From positions 620,001 to 684,000 of the forward strand of contig NZ_JABBYJ010000001.1 in the NCBI RefSeq assembly GCF_012932565.1: 64,000 bases of DNA, given 5' to 3'. Each line of letters starts with the position of its first letter. The first letter of the stretch is position 1. Of this stretch, positions 21,342 to 37,662 are shown in pieces. The notes below the pieces were generated by a model. The model saw only the letters and a list, made by a program, of their open reading frames with translations. It was not told where the DNA came from and did not search any database. The position numbers and the translations under genes were made by a program. The DNA comes from Sneathiella limimaris. GTDB lineage: Bacteria > Pseudomonadota > Alphaproteobacteria > Sneathiellales > Sneathiellaceae.

Positions 21342-21947
21342 CTAAAGCGGGCGGACATTCCTCAATTGCAGAACGCAGCCCTCAGAACTGGATAAACTGG
21401 AGTGTTTAACAGCGTCCATATTCCAACATTTTGCGGCATTGGTCAATTCCGCATCTACATCTTGTCCCTTTAAAAACAAAAATGTTGTTTTTTCGGTCGC
21501 AAATTTATGACCCAGATCTAGCAGTTTTTCGAGTGAGGCAAGCGCTCTAGCAGAGATAACATTAGCCTTAAACGGCTCAATTGCCTCAATTCTTTTGGTA
21601 TGAACTGTAATTGGCGTGGATGTTTCACGTGAAACTTCACGCATGAATTGACACTTCCGAAGATCACTTTCAATGACATGAACATCGTGATCTGTTGCCA
21701 TGGCTACCACTAATGCTGGAAACCCAGCCCCACTTCCCAAATCCACCCAGATGGATTTTTCTTTGGGTCCGTATTGAATAACCTGATAGCTATCCAGAAT
21801 ATGTCGGATCCAAACATCGGGAAGTGTAGATTTACTGACCAAGTTGATCGCCTTCTGCCACTTGTTCAGAAGCGCAACATAGGTTTCCAGTTTTTCCAGT
21901 GTTTCACGTGAAACACCAGTCAACTGTTGGAATTCCTGTTTAGACAT
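21342..21947 (-). CDS. rsmG: 16S rRNA (guanine(527)-N7)-methyltransferase
   Basis: RsmG (GidB, 201 aa) methylates G527 of 16S rRNA with SAM. The SAM motif is DLGSGAGFPALVVAM, the acidic motif is VIESDLRKCQFMREV, and SARALASLEKLL follows; all are standard. The gene is nine bases after mnmG. Two parS-type palindromes lie within it: one falls in the codons around MREVSRETSTP and one in GVSRETLEK, both encoding a VSRET peptide. This explains the repeated peptide. Confidence 0.96.
   Translation of the reverse strand: MSKQEFQQLTGVSRETLEKLETYVALLNKWQKAINLVSKSTLPDVWIRHILDSYQVIQYGPKEKSIWVDLGSGAGFPALVVAMATDHDVHVIESDLRKCQFMREVSRETSTPITVHTKRIEAIEPFKANVISARALASLEKLLDLGHKFATEKTTFLFLKGQDVDAELTNAAKCWNMDAVKHSSLSSSEGCVLQLRNVRPL
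21621..21636. promoter_or_regulatory. parS site 1 (15/16 match)
   Basis: TGTTTCACGTGAAACT matches the bacterial chromosomal parS consensus TGTTTCACGTGAAACA at 15 of 16 positions. It lies in the middle of rsmG. ParB is expected to bind it. Confidence 0.93.
21900..21915. promoter_or_regulatory. parS site 2 (perfect)
   Basis: TGTTTCACGTGAAACA is a perfect parS palindrome, in the 5' end of rsmG, 279 bases from site 1. Confidence 0.97.
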
Positions 21948-21956
21948 GTTTAGTAG

Positions 21957-23822
21957 TTATCCAGCGATTTTCCGATGGTCGCCCCGTTTGACGTAGGACA
22001 ACAAGGCCGTAAGAGCTGCAGGGGTGACACCTGAAATTCGGGCCGCCTGACCTAAAGTGTCTGGTCGGGTGTCTTTTAGCTTCTGACGAACCTCTGATGA
22101 CAGCCCACCGATTTTATCATAGTCCAGATTGGTTGGCAGGATCAGGGCTTCATCCTTTCGGAATTCCCGAATGTCAGCCTTCTGTCGGTCCAGATACCCC
22201 TTATACTGAGCATCGATTGCAACCTGCTCCAATATGGTTTTATCAAACTGCGTAGTCTCTGGCCAAATCTCAGCGATCATTTCAAGATCAATATCCGGAT
22301 AGGCAAGCAAATCAGAAGCAGATCTTCTCACACCATCCTGATTAACATTGAGCCCTTTCGCACGGGCCTCATTCGGTGTCAGCGTTAGATCTCCGAACAG
22401 AGTTTTAGCTTTTGCCAAATCAGCCTGTTTAGCTTCGAAGGCTCTTTTGCGATCCAAGCCAACACAGCCGATTTCTAAACCCAGATTTGTCAGCCGACTA
22501 TCAGCATTATCTGCCCTGAGGACGAGACGATATTCAGCCCGGGAGGTAAACATCCGATAAGGCTCCTGCGTGCCACGGGTCACCAAGTCATCAATCATGA
22601 CCCCCATATAGGCATCTGCCCGATCCAGGATAAAGGCCCCATCACCACCAGCAGCACGGGCTGCGTTGATCCCCGCCAACAGACCTTGTGCGGCCGCCTC
22701 TTCATAGCCGGTCGTTCCGTTTATCTGTCCCGCTAGATAAAGGTTTTTCAGACGCCGGGTTTCCAGCGTATGACGCAGTTCACGTGGGTCAACAAAGTCA
22801 TACTCAATGGCGTAACCAGCCTGATAAAATTCAACTTTTTCCAATCCGGGAATTGAACGGAGGAATGCGACCTGAACATCAGCCGGTAAGGATGTGGACA
22901 TACCATTCGGATAAATCGTATCCACATCCAGCCCTTCTGGCTCCAGAAAAATCTGGTGACTAGACTTATCCGCAAAGCGTACAACTTTGTCTTCAATTGA
23001 AGGACAATAGCGCGGACCCGTTCCTGTAATCTCACCTGAATACATCGGCGCCCGATGTAGATTATCACGGATAACCTGATGGGTTTTTTCCGTCGTGTAA
23101 GTGATATGACAACAAATCTGAGGGGTCGTAATTTCCTTCGTCAGGAAAGAAAATGGAACTGGTTCATCATCCCCCGGCTGTTCTTCCAGAACGGACCAAT
23201 TGATAGTTTTCCCATCCAGTCGTGCGGGTGTCCCTGTTTTCAACCGACCCAGTTCAAATCCAGCCCGCTCAAGTGTCACCGATAGTCCATTTGACGGATC
23301 ATCACCTATCCGGCCTGCCGGGATCTTTTTCTCACCCATATGGATCAGACCCCGAAGGAAGGTACCAGTGGTGAGGATAACTTTACCTGAGCGGATTTCG
23401 GTTCCATCAGCCGTAATCGCCCCCAGAACTTCTCCATTTTCGACAATAAGATCCTCAACAGCCGCAGCCTTGATCGTCAAGTTATCCTGCCCATTAAGAG
23501 CATCTTGCATAGCGGCTTTGTAAAGCTTCCGATCTGATTGTGCCCGGGGACCGCGAACGGCTGGACCCTTCCGACGATTAAGCAGACGAAATTGAATACC
23601 GGCAGCATCAGCGACCCGGCCCATAACCCCATCAAGCGCATCAATTTCACGCACAAGGTGACCCTTGCCCAAACCTCCGATCGCAGGGTTACAGGACATG
23701 GCACCAATGGTATCAAGCTTGTGGGTCAGTAAAAGGGTATTTGCCCCCATACGGGCAGAAGCGGCAGCGGCCTCACAGCCAGCATGTCCACCCCCAATTA
23801 CAATTACGTCATATACAGTCAT
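21957..23822 (-). CDS. mnmG: tRNA uridine-5-carboxymethylaminomethyl modification enzyme MnmG
   Basis: MnmG (GidA, 621 aa) is the FAD protein that works with MnmE to build cmnm5U at the wobble position of several tRNAs. The FAD-binding [10 protein letters not shown] is at the N-terminus; other family motifs are [45 protein letters not shown] and the C-terminal tRNA-binding helices. ATG 23822 ([11 protein letters not shown]) is preferred over a TTG nine bases upstream. The partner mnmE is just upstream on the same strand. Confidence 0.97.
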
Positions 23823-23889
23823 GAGCGCCAATTTAGGAATAGAAATTCAAATGTCAAAACAATAATGGGAGGGATAAAGAATTGGTCAC

Positions 23890-23905
23890 TGTTTCACGTG
23901 AAACA
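23890..23905. promoter_or_regulatory. parS site 3 (perfect)
   Basis: TGTTTCACGTGAAACA, a perfect parS, sits in the 96-base gap between mnmE and mnmG. Confidence 0.97.
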
Positions 23906-23918
23906 GAATAAAAAACCC

Positions 23919-25244
23919 CTATTTTCCAATACAAAAATCCCCAAAAACCACGTCCAGAATATCTTCCACATCAACCCGTCCCGTGATTCTACCCAGCGCC
24001 CGAACCGCAAGTCGCACATCCTCCGCCGCCAACTCCGGATCAGGCGCCTGGTCAAAACGATCCAGAGCCTCAATACAGTCTTCAAGTGACTGACGATGAC
24101 GAAGACGTGTTAAAGATGGTGCCCCCGAAACATCCAAGCGGTTAACCACATCTTCTTCCAGTTGCTGAAGGAAGAGATCTAATCCCTCCTCGGTCTTCAC
24201 GGATAAATAAAAATGGCGAGGGTGATCCGTAGGTCCCGGTTTTTGAGCCCCCAGATCTGCCTTATTGTAAATCCGGTAACTTTCATCTGTCATCAGATCG
24301 GAAAATTCAACCGGTGCATCAGATCCCATTGCGGCCTCTGTCATGAAAATCAGAATATCCGCCGCTTCAGCACGAGCACGGGCACGGCGCACGCCTTCAC
24401 GCTCCACCAAATCAGTAGCATCACGAATACCTGCGGTATCAGCTATTGTCACAGGATATCCAGCTAGGTCCAAATGAACTTCCACAATGTCCCGGGTTGT
24501 TCCTGCTTGTTCAGAAACAATAGCCGCTTCTTTTCGCGCCAGTTTATTCAATAAACTGGATTTCCCGATATTCGGAGCGCCCAAAATAACAACATCCAGA
24601 CCTTCCCGAATTTTTTCACCCCTATGGCCATCGGCAAGATGCTGTTTCATCTCCCCTTTCAGCCGGTCAATCTTGGGACGAATAGCGCTGGCTACCCCTT
24701 CAGGCAGATCCTCATCCGGAAAATCAATGTCCGCTTCCAGATGCGCAAGGCTTTGAATGAGTTCTTCTCTCCATGCTGTGTAAATAGCTCCCAGTTCACC
24801 CCGCATTTGACGTAGGGCCTGCTGATGCTGGGCATGGGTCTCAGCATTGACAAGATCGCCAATACCCTCCGCTTCTGTCAGGTCAAGCTTACCATTCTCA
24901 AATGCACGACGGGTGAATTCCCCTGGGTCAGCTGGGCGAAAGTCTTCTAAACCGCTCAAATTATCAAAAAGGGCAGTTACCAGGGCTGGACCGCCATGAA
25001 GATGGATCTCGACCACATCTTCACCCGTGAAGCTTTCCGGCCCCTTAAATAGAAGAACGAGTGCCTCGTCGATCAAATAAGATCCATCCAGCGACCAAAT
25101 TTCCCTGACTGATGCCATTCGAATGGCAGGCAGAGTTTTTTTGGTGAGCTTTTCAAGAGCCGTAAAAGCAGAAGGCCCTGAAATCCGGATGACAGATACA
25201 CCCGCCCGGCCCCGGCCACTGGCCAGTGCAAAAATTGTATCCAT
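23919..25244 (-). CDS. mnmE: tRNA modification GTPase MnmE
   Basis: MnmE (TrmE, 441 aa) is the GTPase partner of MnmG. The N-terminal tetrahydrofolate-binding domain opens with DTIFALASGRGRAGVSVIRISG in part, the G domain has the P-loop GAPNIGKSS, the G3 motif DTAGIRD and the G4-type NKADL, and the protein ends with the conserved FCIGK whose cysteine is functionally required in the family. In the P-loop GAPNIGKSSL the family's GxPNxGKS pattern is kept. Confidence 0.97.
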   Translation of the reverse strand: MDTIFALASGRGRAGVSVIRISGPSAFTALEKLTKKTLPAIRMASVREIWSLDGSYLIDEALVLLFKGPESFTGEDVVEIHLHGGPALVTALFDNLSGLEDFRPADPGEFTRRAFENGKLDLTEAEGIGDLVNAETHAQHQQALRQMRGELGAIYTAWREELIQSLAHLEADIDFPDEDLPEGVASAIRPKIDRLKGEMKQHLADGHRGEKIREGLDVVILGAPNIGKSSLLNKLARKEAAIVSEQAGTTRDIVEVHLDLAGYPVTIADTAGIRDATDLVEREGVRRARARAEAADILIFMTEAAMGSDAPVEFSDLMTDESYRIYNKADLGAQKPGPTDHPRHFYLSVKTEEGLDLFLQQLEEDVVNRLDVSGAPSLTRLRHRQSLEDCIEALDRFDQAPDPELAAEDVRLAVRALGRITGRVDVEDILDVVFGDFCIGK

Positions 25245-25263
25245 AAGGTATCAGATCCGTTTT

Positions 25264-25512
25264 TTAATCTTCAGACTTGTCTTTCGAACCCGAAAAGGAA
25301 TTCCAGAACATATTTTGCATCTGATCAAATCCCTTCATTCCTGCTGGGAACCAGGTCTTCATCATGTTTTCTGGATCCATGCGGGAAATATTTTCCATCA
25401 TCTTTCTCTGGATCTCATCCATCACGGCCTTTTGCATGGGTTCCACATCGGGCAGACCAAAAAATTTCCTTGCTTCCTCTGGTGTACACTCAATATCAAC
25501 GTTAACCTTCAT
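25264..25512 (-). CDS. Small DUF6489-type alphaproteobacterial protein
   Basis: An 82-aa protein starting MKVNVDIECTPEEARKFFGLPDV, which fits my recollection of the small DUF6489 family of alphaproteobacteria. It is acidic and methionine-rich, with no signal peptide or membrane segment. ATG 25512 has a GGAG site eight bases upstream; the frame runs further upstream without conserved sequence. It lies 19 bases before mnmE on the same strand and is probably co-transcribed. The phrase PEEARKFFGLPDV and the phasin-like spacing MQNMFWNSF suggest a possible granule- or protein-binding role, but function is unknown. Confidence 0.75.
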   Translation of the reverse strand: MKVNVDIECTPEEARKFFGLPDVEPMQKAVMDEIQRKMMENISRMDPENMMKTWFPAGMKGFDQMQNMFWNSFSGSKDKSED

Positions 25513-25621
25513 GGACAGGACTCCTTGTATTGTCCGCAAGAGAACGATATTGAAGGTAAGTGAAAATCTGAGGTGGATCAATCAGATGGATGTGTTTCAC
25601 CCAAAATAAATAGGAAAACCC

Positions 25622-27646
25622 ATGGAAAATGTCCTGGATCAGGAAACAAGCCCCTATTTGCTGCAACACAAAGACAACCCAGTCCACTGGCAGCCGTGGG
25701 GAGACAAAGCCCTGGATCAGGCAAAACGAGAGGGAAAGCCCATTCTTCTGAGTGTGGGTTACGCAGCCTGTCACTGGTGCCATGTCATGGCCCATGAAAG
25801 TTTTGAGGATCCAGAAGTCGCTGCGGTAATGAATGACCTCTTTGTCAATATCAAGGTGGACCGAGAAGAGCGTCCAGATATTGATAACATTTATCAGACT
25901 GCCCTCGCCCTTCTTGGAGAGCAAGGCGGTTGGCCGCTCACCATGTTCCTTAATTCAAAGGGAGAGCCTTTTTGGGGCGGAACCTATTTTCCAAAGGAAA
26001 GTGCTTATGGACGGCCAGGTTTTATCCATGTCTTGAATTCTGTCTCTGAGATTTTTAAGAACGAGCCTGAAAAAGTCACCAAAAACCGCGATATTCTGAA
26101 AGAAGCGCTGAAAAATCAAAATAGTATACCGGATGGAGATCGCCCAAAACTCAATTCTGAGGTTCTGGATCGCATAGCGCTCCGATATGCGGATGAAGCT
26201 GACTTAGAGCATGGTGGAATAGGTTCAGCTCCTAAATTTCCTCAGACCTATGTTCTTGAAAACCTGTGGCGGAGCTATGTCCGTACCCAAAATGAGACCC
26301 TTGCTGATATTGTCATAAAGGCCCTCACCCATATGTCCCAAGGGGGTATTTACGATCATCTTGGAGGTGGTTACGCCCGCTATTCAACTGATCAGGAGTG
26401 GCTTGTCCCACATTTTGAGAAGATGCTCTATGACAATGCATTAATCCTGGATCTGATGCTTCTGGTTCATCAGGAAACGAAGAGCGATCTGTTTAAAGAG
26501 CGTATCTATGAGACTGCTGATTGGCTAATTCGAGAAATGATCGGAGAAAATGGGGCTTTCAGTGCCACCATCGATGCCGACAGTGAAGGTGTTGAAGGAA
26601 AGTTTTATGTCTGGGATCTAGAGGAAATCACTGAAATCCTTGGGGATCAAGCGGCCCAGTTTGCAGAAATCTATGGGATTGAGGCTGAAGGAAATTGGGA
26701 AGGCAAGAACATTCTTCACCGGCTTCACTATCCCACCTATATGGACCCAGAGACTGAAGCCGCACTGCTGCCTTTGCGAGAAAAATTGTTTGAAGTCCGG
26801 AAAACCCGGATTGCGCCAGGACTTGATACCAAAATCCTGACAGATTGGAATGGGTTAATGATAGCAACCCTTGCCAAGGCTGGGGATTATTTTTCTGAAG
26901 TTCGCTGGGTGGAACAGGCTGAAAACGCCTTTACCGCCATCACCACAACCAGCATGAACGATGATGGACGCCTTTTTCATAGTTACCGCTTGGGCCAAGC
27001 CAAGCATACCGGCATGCTGGAAGATTACACCAATATGGCGCGAGCCGCCCTCACCCTATTTGAGATTACGGGTAAAACCTTTTATATGGAGCGGGCCATC
27101 ACCTGGGTTGAAGTGCTCAACACTCATTTCTGGGATGATAAAGAAGGTGGTTATTACCAAACAGCAGATGATGCCTCCGATTTGATTATCAGAGCCAAGT
27201 CCGCATTTGATAATGCTGTTCCCTCTGGCAATGGAACAATCCTAGAAGTTCTTGCCAAACTCCATTACCTGACAGGCGAACGGGCTTATTTTGAAAAGGC
27301 GACCGACATTGTTCGCGCGTTTTCCATTCAACTTGGACGGAATTTCTTCCCACTTGCCACTTTCCTCAATAATTTTGAAACCCTCGTCGAAGGGAAGCAA
27401 ATCATTATTGTTGGAGGACGTGAAGAAGCTGAAGTCCAAGATTTACTTAAAGAAATTCGAAATTTCAGTCTGCCGGCAAAAGTTCTCAATATCATTCCAG
27501 ATACAGAGAACCTGCCTTTTGACCATCCAGCCAAAGGGAAAACTCGAATTGATGGAAAGCCTGCCGCATATGTCTGTACAGGTCCAGTATGCTCACTCCC
27601 GGCAACAACGCCTGTTGATCTCAGTAATATCCTGAAAGGGAATTAA
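25622..27646 (+). CDS. Thioredoxin domain-containing protein, YyaL/SSP411 family (DUF255)
   Basis: A 674-aa cytosolic protein. The N-terminal DUF255 thioredoxin-like domain opens with SPYLLQHKDNPVHW and carries CHWCHVM with Cys50 and Cys53. The rest is an (alpha/alpha)6 barrel like N-acyl-glucosamine 2-epimerase or glycosidases, with HLGGGYARYSTDQEWLVPHFEKM in essence (about 255-280). Members occur from bacteria to humans (SPATA20), with no settled reaction. It leads a plus-strand trio with the methyltransferase (4-base gap) and the quinone oxidoreductase. Confidence 0.92.
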   Translation: MENVLDQETSPYLLQHKDNPVHWQPWGDKALDQAKREGKPILLSVGYAACHWCHVMAHESFEDPEVAAVMNDLFVNIKVDREERPDIDNIYQTALALLGEQGGWPLTMFLNSKGEPFWGGTYFPKESAYGRPGFIHVLNSVSEIFKNEPEKVTKNRDILKEALKNQNSIPDGDRPKLNSEVLDRIALRYADEADLEHGGIGSAPKFPQTYVLENLWRSYVRTQNETLADIVIKALTHMSQGGIYDHLGGGYARYSTDQEWLVPHFEKMLYDNALILDLMLLVHQETKSDLFKERIYETADWLIREMIGENGAFSATIDADSEGVEGKFYVWDLEEITEILGDQAAQFAEIYGIEAEGNWEGKNILHRLHYPTYMDPETEAALLPLREKLFEVRKTRIAPGLDTKILTDWNGLMIATLAKAGDYFSEVRWVEQAENAFTAITTTSMNDDGRLFHSYRLGQAKHTGMLEDYTNMARAALTLFEITGKTFYMERAITWVEVLNTHFWDDKEGGYYQTADDASDLIIRAKSAFDNAVPSGNGTILEVLAKLHYLTGERAYFEKATDIVRAFSIQLGRNFFPLATFLNNFETLVEGKQIIIVGGREEAEVQDLLKEIRNFSLPAKVLNIIPDTENLPFDHPAKGKTRIDGKPAAYVCTGPVCSLPATTPVDLSNILKGN

Positions 27647-27650
27647 ACAA

Positions 27651-28130
27651 ATGGCTCAGCTTTCCATGCATAGCCCTGTTGGGGATCTCACAATTACTGA
27701 AGAGGACGGCGAGATCATTTCCCTGGATTGGGGTTGGATCCCTGCGGAATGGCAAAGCGAAACACCCTTGCTGAGGGAAGCTATCGAACAACTAAATGAC
27801 TATTTCGATGGCAATCGCGTGGATTTCGATCTTCCCTTCAATCCCCCCGGAACCCCTTTTCAGAAGGCGGTCTGCGCAGCTATGTTGAAAATTCCCGGTG
27901 GGTCGACCAAATCCTATGGAGAGCTCGCCGAAGAACTCGATAGCTCTGCACAAGCCGTCGGGAATGCTTGCGGACATAATCCCATTCCCATCCTAATCCC
28001 CTGCCACCGTGTGTTGGCTGCAGGACGAGAAATGGGAGGCTATTCCGGTGACGGAGGCCTGCAAACCAAAAAATGGCTATTGGCCCTTGAAAAGGCCTTG
28101 CCGCCACAACAAGAAGAGCTCAATCTTTAA
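27651..28130 (+). CDS. ogt: Methylated-DNA--protein-cysteine S-methyltransferase
   Basis: A 159-aa suicide repair protein that removes alkyl groups from O6-alkylguanine. The acceptor cysteine is Cys118 in IPCHRVL, preceded by GNACGHNPIPI, and the helix-turn-helix region STKSYGELAEEL is present. It consists of the N-terminal ribonuclease-H-like part and the active-site domain only, without the Ada regulatory domain, so it matches Ogt-type enzymes. Four bases separate it from the upstream gene. Confidence 0.93.
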   Translation: MAQLSMHSPVGDLTITEEDGEIISLDWGWIPAEWQSETPLLREAIEQLNDYFDGNRVDFDLPFNPPGTPFQKAVCAAMLKIPGGSTKSYGELAEELDSSAQAVGNACGHNPIPILIPCHRVLAAGREMGGYSGDGGLQTKKWLLALEKALPPQQEELNL

Positions 28131-28174
28131 ATCATATTTTTAGGGCGCATCCTATAGTCAACAAAGGTATCAAA

Positions 28175-29149
28175 ATGACAAAAGCCATTACATTTAAAGA
28201 ACCAGGAGGACCGGAAGTTCTAAAATGGGAGGACGTGGAAGTTGGAAAACCGGGACCTGGTGAAGTCCGGATAAAACATTCCGCTGTTGGCCTCAATTAC
28301 ATTGATGTCTATTTCAGAACCGGTCTCTATCCAGCCCCCCTCCCCAATGTTCCTGGTATGGAAGCTGTTGGAATTGTTCAAGAAATCGGCGAAGGTGTTA
28401 AATATGTAAAGGTTGGTGACCGGGTCGCTTATGCGGGACGTCCTATCGGGGCTTACGCCGAAGAACGTGTGATGCCAGAAGATGGACTGGTACAAATTCC
28501 TGATACTATTGATGATGAAACTGCAGCAGCCATGATGTTGCAAGGAATGACCGTCGAATATCTTCTACAGCGAACGTTTCACGTGAAACAAGGCGACACG
28601 ATCCTCTTTCATGCCGCAGCCGGTGGTGTTGGACTGATTGCCTGCCAATGGGCAAAACATATTGGTGCAACTGTCATAGGAACTGTCGGATCAGAAGAAA
28701 AAGCTGAACTTGCGAAGGCTCATGGCTGTGACCACACCATTAATTATCGCACAGAAGACTTTCAAAAGCGGGTAATGGAGATAACCGATGGTAAAGGTGT
28801 ACCGGTCGTTTATGACAGTATTGGCAAAGACACTTTTATGAGCTCTCTGGACTGTCTGCAACCTCGAGGACTGATGGTTTCCTTCGGAAATGCAACAGGT
28901 CCTGTTGATAATCTGGACCTTGGAACATTGGCTGCTAAAGGCTCACTTTATGTCACCCGGCCTACACTGATGACTTATAACGCTGAGCGTCCAGACCTCG
29001 AAAAATCAGCAGCTGATCTGATCAAATTGGTCAGTGACGGGACTCTAAAAATCAGCATTGGACAACGGTATCATCTGTCAGAAGCTGCAAAAGCGCATGA
29101 AGATCTGGAAGCCCGGAAGACTACAGGATCCACGATTTTCACACTCTAA
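28175..29149 (+). CDS. qor: NADPH:quinone oxidoreductase
   Basis: A 324-aa zinc-free medium-chain dehydrogenase/reductase of the QOR type. The nucleotide-binding motif is AAAGGVGLIACQWAKHIGA (about residues 147-165), and the N-terminal GLNYIDVYFRTGLYP and VPGMEAVGIV are standard for quinone oxidoreductase. It reduces quinones or other carbonyls with NADPH. Its codons for the segment TFHVKQGD overlap a parS-type site. Confidence 0.94.
   Translation: MTKAITFKEPGGPEVLKWEDVEVGKPGPGEVRIKHSAVGLNYIDVYFRTGLYPAPLPNVPGMEAVGIVQEIGEGVKYVKVGDRVAYAGRPIGAYAEERVMPEDGLVQIPDTIDDETAAAMMLQGMTVEYLLQRTFHVKQGDTILFHAAAGGVGLIACQWAKHIGATVIGTVGSEEKAELAKAHGCDHTINYRTEDFQKRVMEITDGKGVPVVYDSIGKDTFMSSLDCLQPRGLMVSFGNATGPVDNLDLGTLAAKGSLYVTRPTLMTYNAERPDLEKSAADLIKLVSDGTLKISIGQRYHLSEAAKAHEDLEARKTTGSTIFTL
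28575..28590. promoter_or_regulatory. parS site 4 (15/16 match)
   Basis: CGTTTCACGTGAAACA matches parS at 15 of 16 positions. It lies inside qor, about 4.7 kb from site 3 and 6.4-6.8 kb from the probable oriC. Confidence 0.92.
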
Positions 29150-29172: not shown

Positions 29173-29206
29173 AAAAAGCATCTCCATATTTTGGAGATGC
29201 TTTTTT
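29173..29206 (+). terminator. Rho-independent terminator after qor
   Basis: A perfect 14-bp stem built on GCATCTCCA and TGGAGATGC, with a 5-base loop and flanked by A5 and T6, lies 24 bases after the qor stop. It separates the core genes from the AT-rich islet that follows. Confidence 0.9.
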
Positions 29207-29232
29207 GTATTAATAAATTCAACTACTTAGTA

Positions 29233-29264
29233 TTTAGTAATTACATAAATAATAACTAAAATTT
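29233..29264. repeat. AT-rich repeat A (candidate operator)
   Basis: An imperfect dyad with 11-base arms TTTAGTAATTA and TAATAACTAAA around a 6-base centre. Bases 29237-29264 match repeat B at 26 of 28 positions, in the same orientation. It lies upstream of the nucleotidyltransferase gene, directly next to a TTGACA hexamer (29263-29268) that could be part of a promoter. Confidence 0.7.
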
Positions 29265-29948: not shown

Positions 29949-29988
29949 CAAGAAGTATTAATTCCATAAAATCAGTTATTTAACATAT

Positions 29989-30016
29989 GTAATTACATAA
30001 ATTATTACTAAAATTT
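29989..30016. repeat. AT-rich repeat B
   Basis: A 28-base element matching repeat A at 26 of 28 positions and, as reverse complement, repeat C at 23 of 26. It lies between the stops of the nucleotidyltransferase gene and the Doc-like gene. It keeps the half-site TTTAGTAATAA on the minus strand. Confidence 0.7.
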
Positions 30017-30092
30017 ATGGATAAAAAAGCACTCAATTTCAGCATATCTGCTTCAATTTTTAAGCTTAACCATATTTGGAATGTAAAGCCGG

Positions 30093-30500
30093 CTAAACAG
30101 TGGACTTAAACTGAAACGGAATGGCATTTTTCTGGAAATAGCCAATTAGAGACTGTTCCGTATGTTGCTCTGTAGCAAGGTCATTAAAAAACTCTGCCAC
30201 TTCCTCATTTGAAACATCCAGCATTAAACCATTCCGCCGAAGTGTAATCATGGCAAGCGCCATCGCAAGAGATGCATTTCCTTTTGGCGCAGGTTGCTCT
30301 GATAGGACACCTGTAAAAAGCGATGACACAAGTTCAAAAAGATCGACTGATTTATTTGCTGTGATCATCATTCGAGGCCAGGCGAGTGCCGCCCCCAATT
30401 TCACATCATCAAGATCCAGATTCTGATCAGCCTCAGATCCATACTGACGGAGCTGCCGCCGGTAAACTTCCCGGATAACTGATCGTGTTGGCAAATGCAT
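30093..30500 (-). CDS. Doc/Fido-like protein lacking the catalytic motif (putative toxin)
   Basis: A 135-aa protein that I align by eye to death-on-curing (Doc) proteins. The N-terminus IREVYRRQLRQYGSEADQN followed by LDLDDVKLGAALAWP mimics Doc's YGG...Gl.dlglLesAlarP, and ASLAMALAMITLRRNGLML mimics RTALAAALxFLxLNGxxL. At the Doc/Fic active site, where HxFxDGNKR is expected, residues 69-77 read QPAPKGNAS: only Gly-Asn remains, and the His, Asp, Lys and Arg are gone. It is 10 bases downstream of an AbrB-type gene, the usual place for a toxin. It may be an inactive or altered-function relative; the family call is an inference from weak similarity. Confidence 0.6.
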   Translation of the reverse strand: MHLPTRSVIREVYRRQLRQYGSEADQNLDLDDVKLGAALAWPRMMITANKSVDLFELVSSLFTGVLSEQPAPKGNASLAMALAMITLRRNGLMLDVSNEEVAEFFNDLATEQHTEQSLIGYFQKNAIPFQFKSTV

Positions 30501-30756: not shown

Positions 30757-30783
30757 TGTCTCTAATCCCTAAATTTAAAGGAT

Positions 30784-30809
30784 AATTTTAGTAATAACAT
30801 ACGTAATTA
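30784..30809. repeat. AT-rich repeat C, inverted copy, at the abrB promoter
   Basis: A 26-base element whose reverse complement matches repeat B at 23 of 26 positions. It holds the half-site TTTAGTAATAA. It overlaps ATTATA (30806-30811), which reads TATAAT on the minus strand, a candidate -10 for the abrB-like gene. Confidence 0.7.
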
Positions 30810-30860
30810 TAAACATATAGCCTTAATCTTGATATGATCTAAGGAATTGAAAATGCAAAT

Positions 30861-33930: not shown

Positions 33931-34968
33931 TCAAGCTTTCCAATTCTTTATGGTTTCTGCCAGTTTAGCTACATTTTCCGGCGGGGTTTGGGGAATTATG
34001 CCATGCCCGAGATTGAAAATATGGGGTCCCTCACCCAGCATCTTCAAAATGTGATGAATGCGATCAACCATTGCATCACCACCGGCAACCAACAGGATTG
34101 GATCCAGATTACCCTGAACAACGACCTTGGGCTGAATTTCCTTTGCAGCCCAACTCAACGATTGGGCTGTATCCAGACTGACCGCAGTAACACCAGTCTT
34201 ATCAACAAAACTCAACAGATTGGCACCAACCCCCTTTGGAAAGCCAATAATTGGAAAGCCTGGATGAATATGGCGAATTTTTTCAACAATCTTGGCAGTC
34301 GGTTTGGTTACCCATCTTTCAAACTTGTCATCGGGAAGCACACCTGCCCAAGTATCAAATAATTGTACTGTTTCGGCACCTGCTTCAATCTGCTTCAGAA
34401 GATATTGAACGGTTGCCTCAACCAACAGATCGATTAATTGATCAAACCCTTCAGGATCAGAATAAGCCCATTTCTTGGTTTCTACATAATCTTTGGACCC
34501 TTTTCCTTCCACCATATAGGTCGCTACGGTCCAGGGAGACCCAGCAAAGCCAATTAAGGAACAATGAGCTGGGATGGAGCTGCTCAGACGATTAACGGTC
34601 TCATAGACAGGCTCCAGTCGATTATGAAGTGTCTCCAGTTTGAAAGAGGATAACTCTTTTGCCGAGCGAACAGGATCTAAGACAGGTCCCTCGCCCTCTT
34701 TGTATGCAAGAGGCTGACCTAAGGCATCTGGGATCAATAGGATATCAGCAAAGAGAATTGCAGCATCCATATCATATCGGCGAAGCGGTTGAAGGGTGAC
34801 TTCTTCTGCAAGCTTTGGGGAGTAGCAAAGATCTAGGAAAGATCCTGCATCTTTTCGGGTTTGGCGATATTCAGGGAGATATCGACCTGCCTGACGCATT
34901 AGCCAAAAAGGTGGCCTGTCCAGTTTTTCTCGGTTTAGGGCTTTTAGAAATCGCTTGTCAGATGACAT
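33931..34968 (-). CDS. hemE: Uroporphyrinogen decarboxylase
   Basis: HemE (345 aa) converts uroporphyrinogen III to coproporphyrinogen III in the cytosol. The signature [18 protein letters not shown] and [16 protein letters not shown] are present, with the conserved DTWAG later. It starts the hemE-hemH-hemJ set and borders the probable replication origin, the same placement as hemE beside Cori in Caulobacter. Confidence 0.97.
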
Positions 34969-35375
34969 TGGAACTGGTCCTGCCTTTTCTCAAAAAGTTA
35001 TCCCTCCCAATATATATTTATAAATAAAAGGAGGTAGTAGTTGTTTATCCCTGTGAATAACGGGGATCCTATTTCTTTCACAGCGAAAATTCAAAATTTG
35101 TGGAAAAAAACTGGTGAAGTGAGTGACTAGGGATAAATACGGTATATCGCCAAAATTAGATCGCCTGAATTATGGGGATTATGGGGATAACTTCAGAAAG
35201 AAGACATAAATTTTGTTTTATCCCCACTTTCAGATGAGCTTGTCTACACATGTCCAGAGGTGTGTGACAATCTTGTAAGAACAGGAATAAACATGAGTAA
35301 AGTTTCTGGAAGTCATGAAAAGCTCGTGTTATCCCTGTTATCCACATTTTCCACAGGCAAAACGGGATGATCTAA
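34969..35375. other. Probable chromosomal replication origin (oriC)
   Basis: A 407-base gene-free, AT-rich stretch between hemE and ppsR. It holds one perfect DnaA box TTATCCACA (35338-35346), a TTATNCACA-type box TGTGAATAA (35052-35060, minus), and near-matches TGTGGAAAA (35099-35107), TGGGGATAA (35182-35190), TTATCCCCA (35218-35226), TTTTCCACA (35347-35355) and several TTATCCCTN. An AT-only run (about 35009-35026) could be the unwinding element. Genes on both sides read away from it, parS sites are 6-14 kb off, and hemE flanks the origin in Caulobacter. No clear CtrA site (TTAAN7TTAA) or GATC/GANTC cluster was seen. Confidence 0.85.
35329..35355 (+). promoter_or_regulatory. Three abutting DnaA-box-like 9-mers
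   Basis: TTATCCCTG, TTATCCACA and TTTTCCACA follow each other without a gap: a weak, a perfect and an 8/9 DnaA box. They end 20 bases before the ppsR start, so DnaA binding here could also affect that promoter. Confidence 0.85.
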
Positions 35376-36206
35376 ATGGGGGATCTTCATCTTCATCTGG
35401 TATCAGATTCAACGGGTGAAACTTTGCAGTCAATTACCAAGGCAGCGCTGGTTCAGTTTGAGGCAAAAGATCCGGTTGAGCATGTCTGGTCAATGACACG
35501 AACAATCCGTCAAATTGATGATATCATTGATTCTATTCAGAAAAATCCTGGTCTTGTTTTATTTACTGTTGTGAATAAGGAACTTAGGGCAGCATTGGAA
35601 AAAGGTTGCCGTAAGGCCAATGTTCCTTGTGTATCAATTCTGGATCCGGTAATGGCCTCACTCTCTCAGTATCTGGGACAGGAAAGCCGGGGTTTACCAG
35701 GTCGTCAGCATATGCTTGATCAACAGTATTTTGCCCGGATTGAAGCCTTGAATTACACAATGGCGCATGATGATGGCCAAATGCCTGATGGTCTGGAAGA
35801 TGCAGATATTATTCTTGTTGGGGTTTCCAGAACCTCTAAAACACCGACTTCCTTCTATTTATCCCATCGCGGGATTAAGACTGCGAATATCCCCATTGTT
35901 GTTGGATGCCCCCTACCGCCGCAGCTTTTTGAAGTAAAAAAACCCTTTGTGGTTGGGCTAACCTCCAGTCCGGATCGGTTGTCGCAAATTCGTAAAAACA
36001 GACTTCTATCGCTCAAAGAGACCCATGATACAAACTATGTAGATATGGAAGGGATCAAGAATGAAGTTCTGGAAGCTCGGAAGCTGTGTACGAAACATAA
36101 ATGGCCGGTAATTGATGTTACCCGGCGGTCAGTTGAAGAGACAGCAGCACAGATCATTACGTTATTCCATAAGCGCCATCAAAAAGAAGAAAGTCGCATT
36201 ATATGA
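35376..36206 (+). CDS. ppsR: PPDK/PEP synthase regulatory protein (DUF299)
   Basis: A 276-aa bifunctional kinase/phosphorylase that inactivates and reactivates pyruvate phosphate dikinase or PEP synthase by ADP-dependent phosphorylation and Pi-dependent dephosphorylation. HLVSDSTGET and the P-loop GVSRTSKTPTSFYLSHRG are the family signatures. No ppdK or ppsA gene is in the window, so the target enzyme is undetermined. The stop overlaps the maf start by four bases (ATGA), the first of four tightly linked joins in this operon. Confidence 0.93.
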   Translation: MGDLHLHLVSDSTGETLQSITKAALVQFEAKDPVEHVWSMTRTIRQIDDIIDSIQKNPGLVLFTVVNKELRAALEKGCRKANVPCVSILDPVMASLSQYLGQESRGLPGRQHMLDQQYFARIEALNYTMAHDDGQMPDGLEDADIILVGVSRTSKTPTSFYLSHRGIKTANIPIVVGCPLPPQLFEVKKPFVVGLTSSPDRLSQIRKNRLLSLKETHDTNYVDMEGIKNEVLEARKLCTKHKWPVIDVTRRSVEETAAQIITLFHKRHQKEESRII

Positions 36207-36814
36207 GCGAACAGGATAAGCCACTGGTTATTCTGGCCTCAGCCAGCCAGTCACGGAAAATGCTGCTGGAAAATGCTGGTCTTCAGTTTGAAACAAAAGC
36301 TGCAAACGTGGATGAAAGTGAACTGAAACATTCTCTTCAGGCTTCGGGTGCGAACGCCAAAGACACAGCAGTTGCACTTGCTGAATTAAAGGCGCTGCGA
36401 ATTTCGAAGGAATTTCCCAATGCACTGATCATTGGGGCGGATCAAATGCTTGAATGTAATGGGGTCTGGTTCGACAAGCCTGCAGATATGAGTCATGCCA
36501 GAGCTCATCTTTTATCCCTGAAGGGGAAAAATCATCACTTACAAACAGCAGTTTGTGTCGCTAAAGCAAATACAATTATTTGGCACTATACACAAACAGC
36601 GACGCTGGAAATGCGGAGTTTTAGTGATGAATTTCTGGATCAGTATCTAGATCAAGCGGGGGAGGAAATCTTGCAATCTGTCGGCGCTTATCAACTGGAA
36701 GGACTTGGTGCCCAGCTTTTCAATAAGATTGAGGGTGATTTCTTTTCAATCCTCGGGTTGCCCTTGTTGCCGTTGGTTGATTTTTTGCGGGGTCATAAGG
36801 TTTTTAAGTCATGA
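36203..36814 (+). CDS. maf: Maf-family nucleotide pyrophosphatase
   Basis: A 203-aa Maf protein that hydrolyses non-canonical or modified NTPs to NMP and PPi. LASASQSRKMLLENAGL is the N-terminal phosphate-binding signature, followed by GADQML and the C-terminal VGAYQLEGLGAQLFNKIEGD. Which substrate class (dTTP/UTP or 7-methyl-GTP) is used cannot be fixed. Four-base overlaps on both sides indicate translational coupling with ppsR and aroE. Confidence 0.93.
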   Translation: MSEQDKPLVILASASQSRKMLLENAGLQFETKAANVDESELKHSLQASGANAKDTAVALAELKALRISKEFPNALIIGADQMLECNGVWFDKPADMSHARAHLLSLKGKNHHLQTAVCVAKANTIIWHYTQTATLEMRSFSDEFLDQYLDQAGEEILQSVGAYQLEGLGAQLFNKIEGDFFSILGLPLLPLVDFLRGHKVFKS

Positions 36815-37662
36815 CGAAATGTGCTGGTTTATTGGGGTATCCTGTTTCTCATTCGTCCTCTCCTCGCCTTCACGGGTTTTGGATTCAAAAATATGGTTTG
36901 GATGCCAGTTATGAAGCGCATGAAGTTCAGCCAGACGAACTAATGTCTCAAATTGCTGATCTCAAATCGCACATAGAGCAAACTGGAAATGAATTTCGGG
37001 GATGTAATCTGACACTCCCTTTGAAGGAAACCATTATTCCCTATATTGATCAGCTTGAGCAGGCTGCATCGGAAATCGGGGCGGTAAATACGCTGGTTAT
37101 CAGTGAAAATGGCGAGCTTCAGGGAAAAAATACAGATTGGATTGGATTTAGGGACAGTCTAGGAGACCATCTTAATTTAGATCGTTTCGTTAACGGAACA
37201 GCTTTGGTCCTAGGCGCTGGAGGTGCCGCCCGTGCTATTCTTTATGCGTTGAAATCAATGGGGTTTTCAAAAATATTTCTTACTAATCGTACCCAAGCTC
37301 GTGCCCAGCACTTAGCAAACGAAATGAAGAATATCCCTATTGAAGTCGTTCCTTGGGATGAAAAGGAACAAATGCTTTCAAAGACCGATTTACTTGTGAA
37401 CACGACCAGTCTTGGCATGAAAGGGCAACCACCCCTGATACTGGATCTTACAGATCTAAAGAAAACCGCTGTGGTAACTGATATTGTTTATGCCCCTCTT
37501 GAGACAGAACTCTTGAAACAGGCGCGTTTGAAAGGCCATAGTGTGGTGGATGGTCTTGGAATGCTGCTTCATCAGGCAAAAGCCGGATTTGAAGCCTGGT
37601 TTGGGGTCTATCCTGAAGTGGATAAAGACTTGCGTCATCATGTCTTGGAAGGACTGAAGTAA
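36811..37662 (+). CDS. aroE: Shikimate dehydrogenase
   Basis: AroE (283 aa) reduces 3-dehydroshikimate with NADPH in aromatic amino-acid synthesis. The substrate site begins GYPVSHSSSPRLHGFW, the catalytic lysine is in LTLPLKETI, the product-side motif is GAVNTL then NTDWIGF, and the nucleotide-binding loop is LGAGGAARAILYAL. Length is normal. It overlaps maf by four bases and is two bases from coaE. Confidence 0.95.
   Translation: MTKCAGLLGYPVSHSSSPRLHGFWIQKYGLDASYEAHEVQPDELMSQIADLKSHIEQTGNEFRGCNLTLPLKETIIPYIDQLEQAASEIGAVNTLVISENGELQGKNTDWIGFRDSLGDHLNLDRFVNGTALVLGAGGAARAILYALKSMGFSKIFLTNRTQARAQHLANEMKNIPIEVVPWDEKEQMLSKTDLLVNTTSLGMKGQPPLILDLTDLKKTAVVTDIVYAPLETELLKQARLKGHSVVDGLGMLLHQAKAGFEAWFGVYPEVDKDLRHHVLEGLK

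Follow-up and report, generated by a model that had tools for sequence, protein, structure and literature searches.

A predicted replication origin between hemE and ppsR in Sneathiella limimaris and the conservation of its W-type DnaA boxes

The 407-bp intergenic gap between hemE and ppsR (positions 34969-35375) is, with very little room for doubt, the single replication origin (oriC) of the main chromosome of Sneathiella limimaris. Four independent lines of evidence lead to this assignment, namely the change of sign of the GC skew, the cluster of parS sites, a skew minimum at the same gap in a second species, and the length and anatomy of the gap, which are kept within the genus. Together with synteny they all agree with the first-pass annotation, where an origin had been proposed at this place from the letters of the DNA. 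Positions refer to the window, that is, the whole stretch of 64,000 nucleotides that was analyzed (C1:620001-684000), taken from a 3.66-Mb genome in three contigs (C1 to C3).

The gap carries no gene, and its flanking genes read outwards, as had been noted earlier. On its left lies hemE, encoding uroporphyrinogen decarboxylase (33931-34968, minus strand; PF01208, E=1.7e-120), and on its right the gene of a ppsR-type kinase/pyrophosphorylase (35376-36206, plus strand; PF03618, E=3e-96), a member of COG1806 and counterpart of the RP001/CC_0001 neighbor. COG1806 is a known origin neighbor, and the hemE/COG1806 pair marks the origin locus of Caulobacter (PMC1914354), in line with the earlier remark that hemE adjoins the origin there. 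The two genes are divergent in all 24 members of the genus that have both at the locus, and in 84 of the 85 loci examined in the class (seven of these again from Sneathiella). The gap measures 399-427 bp and keeps its anatomy in 24 Sneathiella species, within the range of about 300-450 bp used to recognize divergent hemE/COG1806 origins; its A+T content is 63%, versus approximately 52% in the sampled genome stretches.

The location itself is not new, being the classical origin locus of α-proteobacteria (Caulobacter, Rickettsia), and the origin is otherwise ordinary. What is added here is a detailed map of its elements and the finding that its W-type boxes are strongly conserved. A literature search found no paper on both Sneathiella and a replication origin; the genus now gains a mapped origin with a fine anatomy followed across 24 species.

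Canonical and W-type DnaA boxes

The DnaA protein of S. limimaris gives a match of 5e-28 to structure 1j1v (domain IV of E. coli DnaA), and its box-binding helix contains GRDHTTV, as in B. subtilis DnaA. The boxes listed in the first-pass annotation are all present: a perfect box TTATCCACA at 35338-35346 (plus strand), a box TTATTCACA on the opposite strand at 35052-35060, and, where at least four boxes with one mismatch had been claimed, exactly four, namely TTTTCCACA at 35099-35107 (minus) and 35347-35355 (plus), and TTATCCCCA at 35182-35190 (minus) and 35218-35226 (plus). Boxes within one mismatch of TTATNCACA occur on average 0.31 times per 407 bp in 864 kb of the genome, versus six in the gap (by hand arithmetic, a Poisson estimate of about 1e-6 per gap), which is thus the densest cluster of the sample, the runner-up having four.

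Most boxes in the left part of the gap point to hemE, and the right-hand boxes are directed towards ppsR. The R1-like box TTATTCACA, which lies beside the probable unwinding element, is canonical in 12 of 24 species. The site homologous to 35099-35107 reads TTATCCCCA/G in 17 of 24 species and TTWTNCACA in five. The right, R4-like array (35329-35355, plus strand) consists of three contiguous 9-mers, TTATCCCTG-TTATCCACA-TTTTCCACA, and ends 20 bp before ppsR; its first unit is TTATCCC(T/C)G in 24 of 24 species, the second is canonical in 17 and the third in 12. A search of 16 Sneathiella genomes recovered the pattern of this array in every one, mostly once.

The dominant element of the gap, absent from the earlier list, is TTATCCC. 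It is present in six copies, versus 0.047 expected per 407 bp from its 424 occurrences in the whole 3.66-Mb genome, with two copies at most in any other cluster of the 864-kb sample. The leftmost copy (S1; 34998-35004, plus) lies on the hemE side at the left edge of the unwinding element, and is TTATCCY in 22 of 24 species with a mean column identity of 0.99. The W-type half site GGATCCCCG (35061-35069, minus) abuts the R1-like box, and its ATCCCC is invariant in all 24 species. A further TTATCCC at 35130-35136 (minus) is weakly conserved. It is followed by tandem W-type boxes TTATCCCCA-TAATCCCCA at 35173-35190 (minus), where 35182-35190 is TTATCCCC(A/G) in every species, and by the W-type box at 35218-35226, which is of W type in nine species and canonical in three of the 24. 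At 35182 and 35329, all 24 species have TTATCCC, and no canonical site is canonical in more than 17; weak-type sites are thus kept more strictly than canonical boxes across the 24 species. Mean column identity amounts to 0.95-1.00 in the invariant units versus 0.63 outside the elements.

The two types of boxes share one register. In the gaps of the genus, the distances of box-like 9-mers from TTATCC on the same strand peak at 9 or 18 bp, far above all other distances. Moreover, the aligned site 35099-35107 is occupied in different species by TTTTCCACA, TTATCCACA or TTATCCCCA, and therefore canonical and W-type boxes replace each other. The W-box of Caulobacter, which binds DnaA weakly, has the consensus TCCCCA (PMC4285127). 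The same hexamer occurs at 35173, 35182, and 35221, inside TAATCCCCA and TTATCCCCA, and in TTATCCCCA it is extended by the TTA half that a full box has. At 35329 the invariant unit TTATCCCTG deviates from TCCCCA in the last two letters. We considered TTATCCC as a possibly new motif and dropped this idea, since it is a variant of the known W-box class (TCCCCA; PMC4285127). A literature search on TTATCCC in connection with DnaA yielded nothing relevant.

The element extends beyond the genus. In 76 hemE/COG1806 gaps from other α-proteobacteria, a sample skewed towards Sphingomonadales, we counted 47 copies of TTATCCC versus 5 expected and 49 of TTATCCA versus 4 expected, TTATCCG and TTATCCT being far rarer. 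The complete unit TTATCCCTG, in contrast, has 29 copies in the 24 Sneathiella gaps versus none in these 76. Such confinement to the genus could suggest a separate reader, and so could the invariance of two TTATCCC sites set against at most 17 of 24 for canonical boxes; the TTATCCC sites would then be recognized by another origin regulator, which may exclude or help DnaA. We regard this as unlikely, as the sites share TTATCC with the DnaA box, hold the 9-bp register, alternate with canonical boxes at a single aligned position, and fit the W-box of Caulobacter. Recognition of the TTATCCC sites by DnaA itself is the reading adopted below.

GC skew, parS sites and neighboring loci

GC skew was computed for the window, for 31 20-kb segments of C1, and for nine of C2 and C3. 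On C1 it has a negative sign over 1-652 kb, turns positive at 652-654 kb, and stays so until at least 2.40 Mb; from 2.55 Mb onwards, and on every segment of C2 and C3, the sign is negative. The minimum of the cumulative skew, calculated over C1 600-704 kb, falls at window position 34513, less than 500 bp from the gap; on the assumption of one circle made up of the three contigs, the replication arms are approximately 1.82 and 1.84 Mb long. In a relative with a single-contig assembly (G012), the local skew minimum (37234) lies just past the respective hemE/ppsR gap (about 36560-36970; the ppsR match ends at 36562, where the gap begins). The skew plot suggested in the first-pass annotation thus places both the sign change and the minimum at the hemE/ppsR gap, and the minimum is there in the second species too.

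Four parS sites, at 21621, 21900, 23890, and 28575 (span 21621-28590), are situated 6-14 kb from the origin. Two of them are perfect and two have one mismatch, and they are the sole sites with zero or one mismatch in the genome. All lie inside or near a parB-parA-gidB-gidA-trmE cluster, the gene names being read from protein sequences.

In many bacteria the origin is located next to dnaA. Applied to Sneathiella, this would make the hemE/ppsR cluster a DnaA-titrating or regulatory site, and indeed the dnaA-dnaN operon is 38 kb off (dnaA, C1:692953-694383) and is preceded by a 437-bp gap with one perfect TTATCCACA. However, this box stands alone in that gap, outside any cluster, the skew reaches its minimum at 34513 and not near 73000, and the minimum in G012 is also at its hemE/ppsR gap. 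An origin at dnaA, for which a skew minimum beside that gene had been named in advance as the telling sign, was therefore ruled out by skew and box counts, and we hold it to be very improbable.

We also looked for the tandem-box pattern of Sneathiella in other genomes of the class, and obtained three matches in about 285. The tandem matches in loci L177 and L182, which lack hemE and ppsR, were taken as chance. An origin-like gap of about 420 bp was observed in a genome of another family (G092:C1 near 155005; L176, 1230-1652), between rho and maf-aroE. It contains the tandem box, AT-rich DNA, TTGTT repeats, and CCTGTGGATAA in the Sneathiella order, and the 3-kb locus is devoid of hemE and ppsR (rho, maf, and aroE being read from protein sequences). 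Since rho and maf come next, going outwards, after the heme genes and ppsR in Sneathiella, this gap looks like the same origin after its border genes were lost or moved. Near rho in the Sneathiella window there is also an open frame of 135 aa (30093-30500, minus strand), for which a Pfam search gave no match.

Divergent hemE and ppsR must have promoters in or near the gap, but the idea that it is merely their promoter region, with the conserved elements serving transcription, is extremely improbable, because it leaves the skew, the parS sites, and the box cluster unexplained, no sigma-70-like promoter was found in the gap (α-proteobacterial promoters may differ), and the matching anatomy in G092 stands between rho and maf. 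The one terminator-like stem in the gap is the box palindrome at 35047-35067, and an Rfam search of the gap gave no match.

Unwinding side and proposed initiation

The AT-only run noticed in the first-pass annotation is present at 35009-35029 and is the probable DNA unwinding element. Stability within the gap is lowest for the 30 bp starting at 35009, at -29.6 versus a window mean of -41.4 (standard deviation 3.1) kcal/mol. Three AT-rich spots located 4-6 kb to the left (29203-29260, 29977-30026, and 30770-30820) equal or exceed it in instability.

The run is followed by the tract TAGTAGTTGTT (35030-35044, plus strand), in which TAG trios give way to TTG and which is probably a single-strand DnaA-binding element. 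It has three or more TWG units in 22 of 24 species, with a mean column identity of 0.91, and TTGTT in 22 of 24. TAG/TTG repeats of at least three units were found in 22 of 24 gaps of the genus versus 7 of 77 others. Trinucleotide repeats thus separate the AT-rich element from a nearby DnaA box, and the strand and side of the tract fit a DnaA-trio element, with 5'-TAG-3' read towards the box. The DnaA-trio rule calls for three or more trios (PMC8287927). In its strict form (at least three NAN trios within 16 bp of a box), the window falls short with two perfect trios, and 2 of 24 species comply; a strict DnaA-trio element was rejected, as it fails in the 22 others, and the unwinding step is therefore the weakest link of the scheme given below. 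Within the TTG units next to the box lies TTGT, and E. coli DnaA depends on this sequence and one other in its single-stranded element (PMC5742627). The simplest reading is that of a mixed TAG/TTG capture tract.

From the location, anatomy, conservation, and register computed here, we infer binding of DnaA to the TTATCCC sites, unwinding on the left side, and an order of assembly; the detailed mechanism as a whole is one that we moderately favor. DnaA would first bind at the canonical boxes on either end, namely the R1-like TTATTCACA towards hemE and the R4-like triple box towards ppsR. From these anchors it would spread over the adjoining weaker W-type TTATCCC boxes, arranged head-to-tail at 9 bp. 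ATP-DnaA on the left array could then open the AT-rich run 35009-35029 and hold the plus strand at the TAG/TTG repeat, allowing the helicase to load, after which two forks would depart, one via hemE and the other via ppsR.

Regulatory sites and comparison with known origins

The scan for CtrA and IHF motifs proposed earlier revealed neither beyond chance in the gap, whether full or half CtrA sites were considered. The CtrA motif TTAA-N7-TTAA does not occur in the gap at up to one mismatch (1.6 expected) and is missing from the gaps of 22 of 24 species; the IHF motif WATCAANNNNTTR has no exact match in the gap and one site with one mismatch (0.9 expected). The absence of CtrA sites claimed in the first-pass annotation is thus borne out by the motif scan. 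As a departure from the Caulobacter model it is no novelty, since origins without CtrA sites are the rule outside Caulobacter (Marczynski et al.; PMC4468827). The genome does encode CtrA (81% identity to a Caulobacter CtrA query), GcrA, and a CcrM-like methylase (L155) of 359 aa with a RAMA domain, adjoining a mutY-like gene.

GANTC is represented in the Sneathiella gaps by 26 strand counts versus 56 expected, and in the gaps of other α-proteobacteria by 700 versus 271 expected, an approximately 2.6-fold enrichment; the depletion in Sneathiella is observed though the CcrM-like gene is present. Separately, the full TTAA-N7-TTAA occurs in 6 of the 76 non-Sneathiella gaps (L047, L087, L090, L108, L142, and L144), with 12 strand counts versus 0.5 expected. 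Three of these gaps are from Methylobacterium, and the six could represent repeated independent gain.

We tentatively propose, at somewhat less than an even chance, that W-type boxes with the full TTAT half (TTATCCC), set head-to-tail at 9 bp with canonical boxes, constitute the constrained core of α-proteobacterial origins rather than a peculiarity of Caulobacter, and that in Sneathiella they and the mixed TAG/TTG capture tract govern when initiation takes place via weak ATP-DnaA sites, with no recourse to CtrA, IHF, or dense GANTC methylation sites. The strict conservation of weak-type sites and the enrichment of the W-type motif in gaps of the class bear on how origins without CtrA action time initiation through low-affinity DnaA sites.

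Among known origins, Cori of Caulobacter crescentus resembles the Sneathiella gap in its flanking genes, its length of about 400 bp, and its few strong and several weak TCCCCA (W) boxes (PMC1914354, PMC4285127, PMC4468827). It differs in having the G-box TGATCCACA as the strong box in place of TTATNCACA, weak sites that lack the 5' TTA half found in Sneathiella (TTATCCC), and five CtrA sites versus none. Origins of the Rickettsia/Wolbachia type likewise adjoin hemE, are AT-rich, and contain DnaA boxes (PMC1914354), but they were called by CtrA and IHF motifs, neither of which is matched in the Sneathiella gap. Similarities to oriC of E. coli include the unwinding element with an R1-like box facing it, an intervening set of weak boxes, an opposite end with R4-like boxes on the other strand, and TTGT on the putative DnaA-binding strand (PMC5742627); the Sneathiella gap is distinguished by another location, contiguous 9-bp boxes, and the lack of an IHF site. 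Finally, the box-proximal repeats of Sneathiella are TTG and not TAG as in the DnaA-trio system of Bacillus subtilis, Helicobacter, and Thermotoga, with which the gap nevertheless shares tandem boxes, a G-rich spacer, TAG on the fitting strand, and an AT-rich stretch (PMC8287927, PMC10316083).
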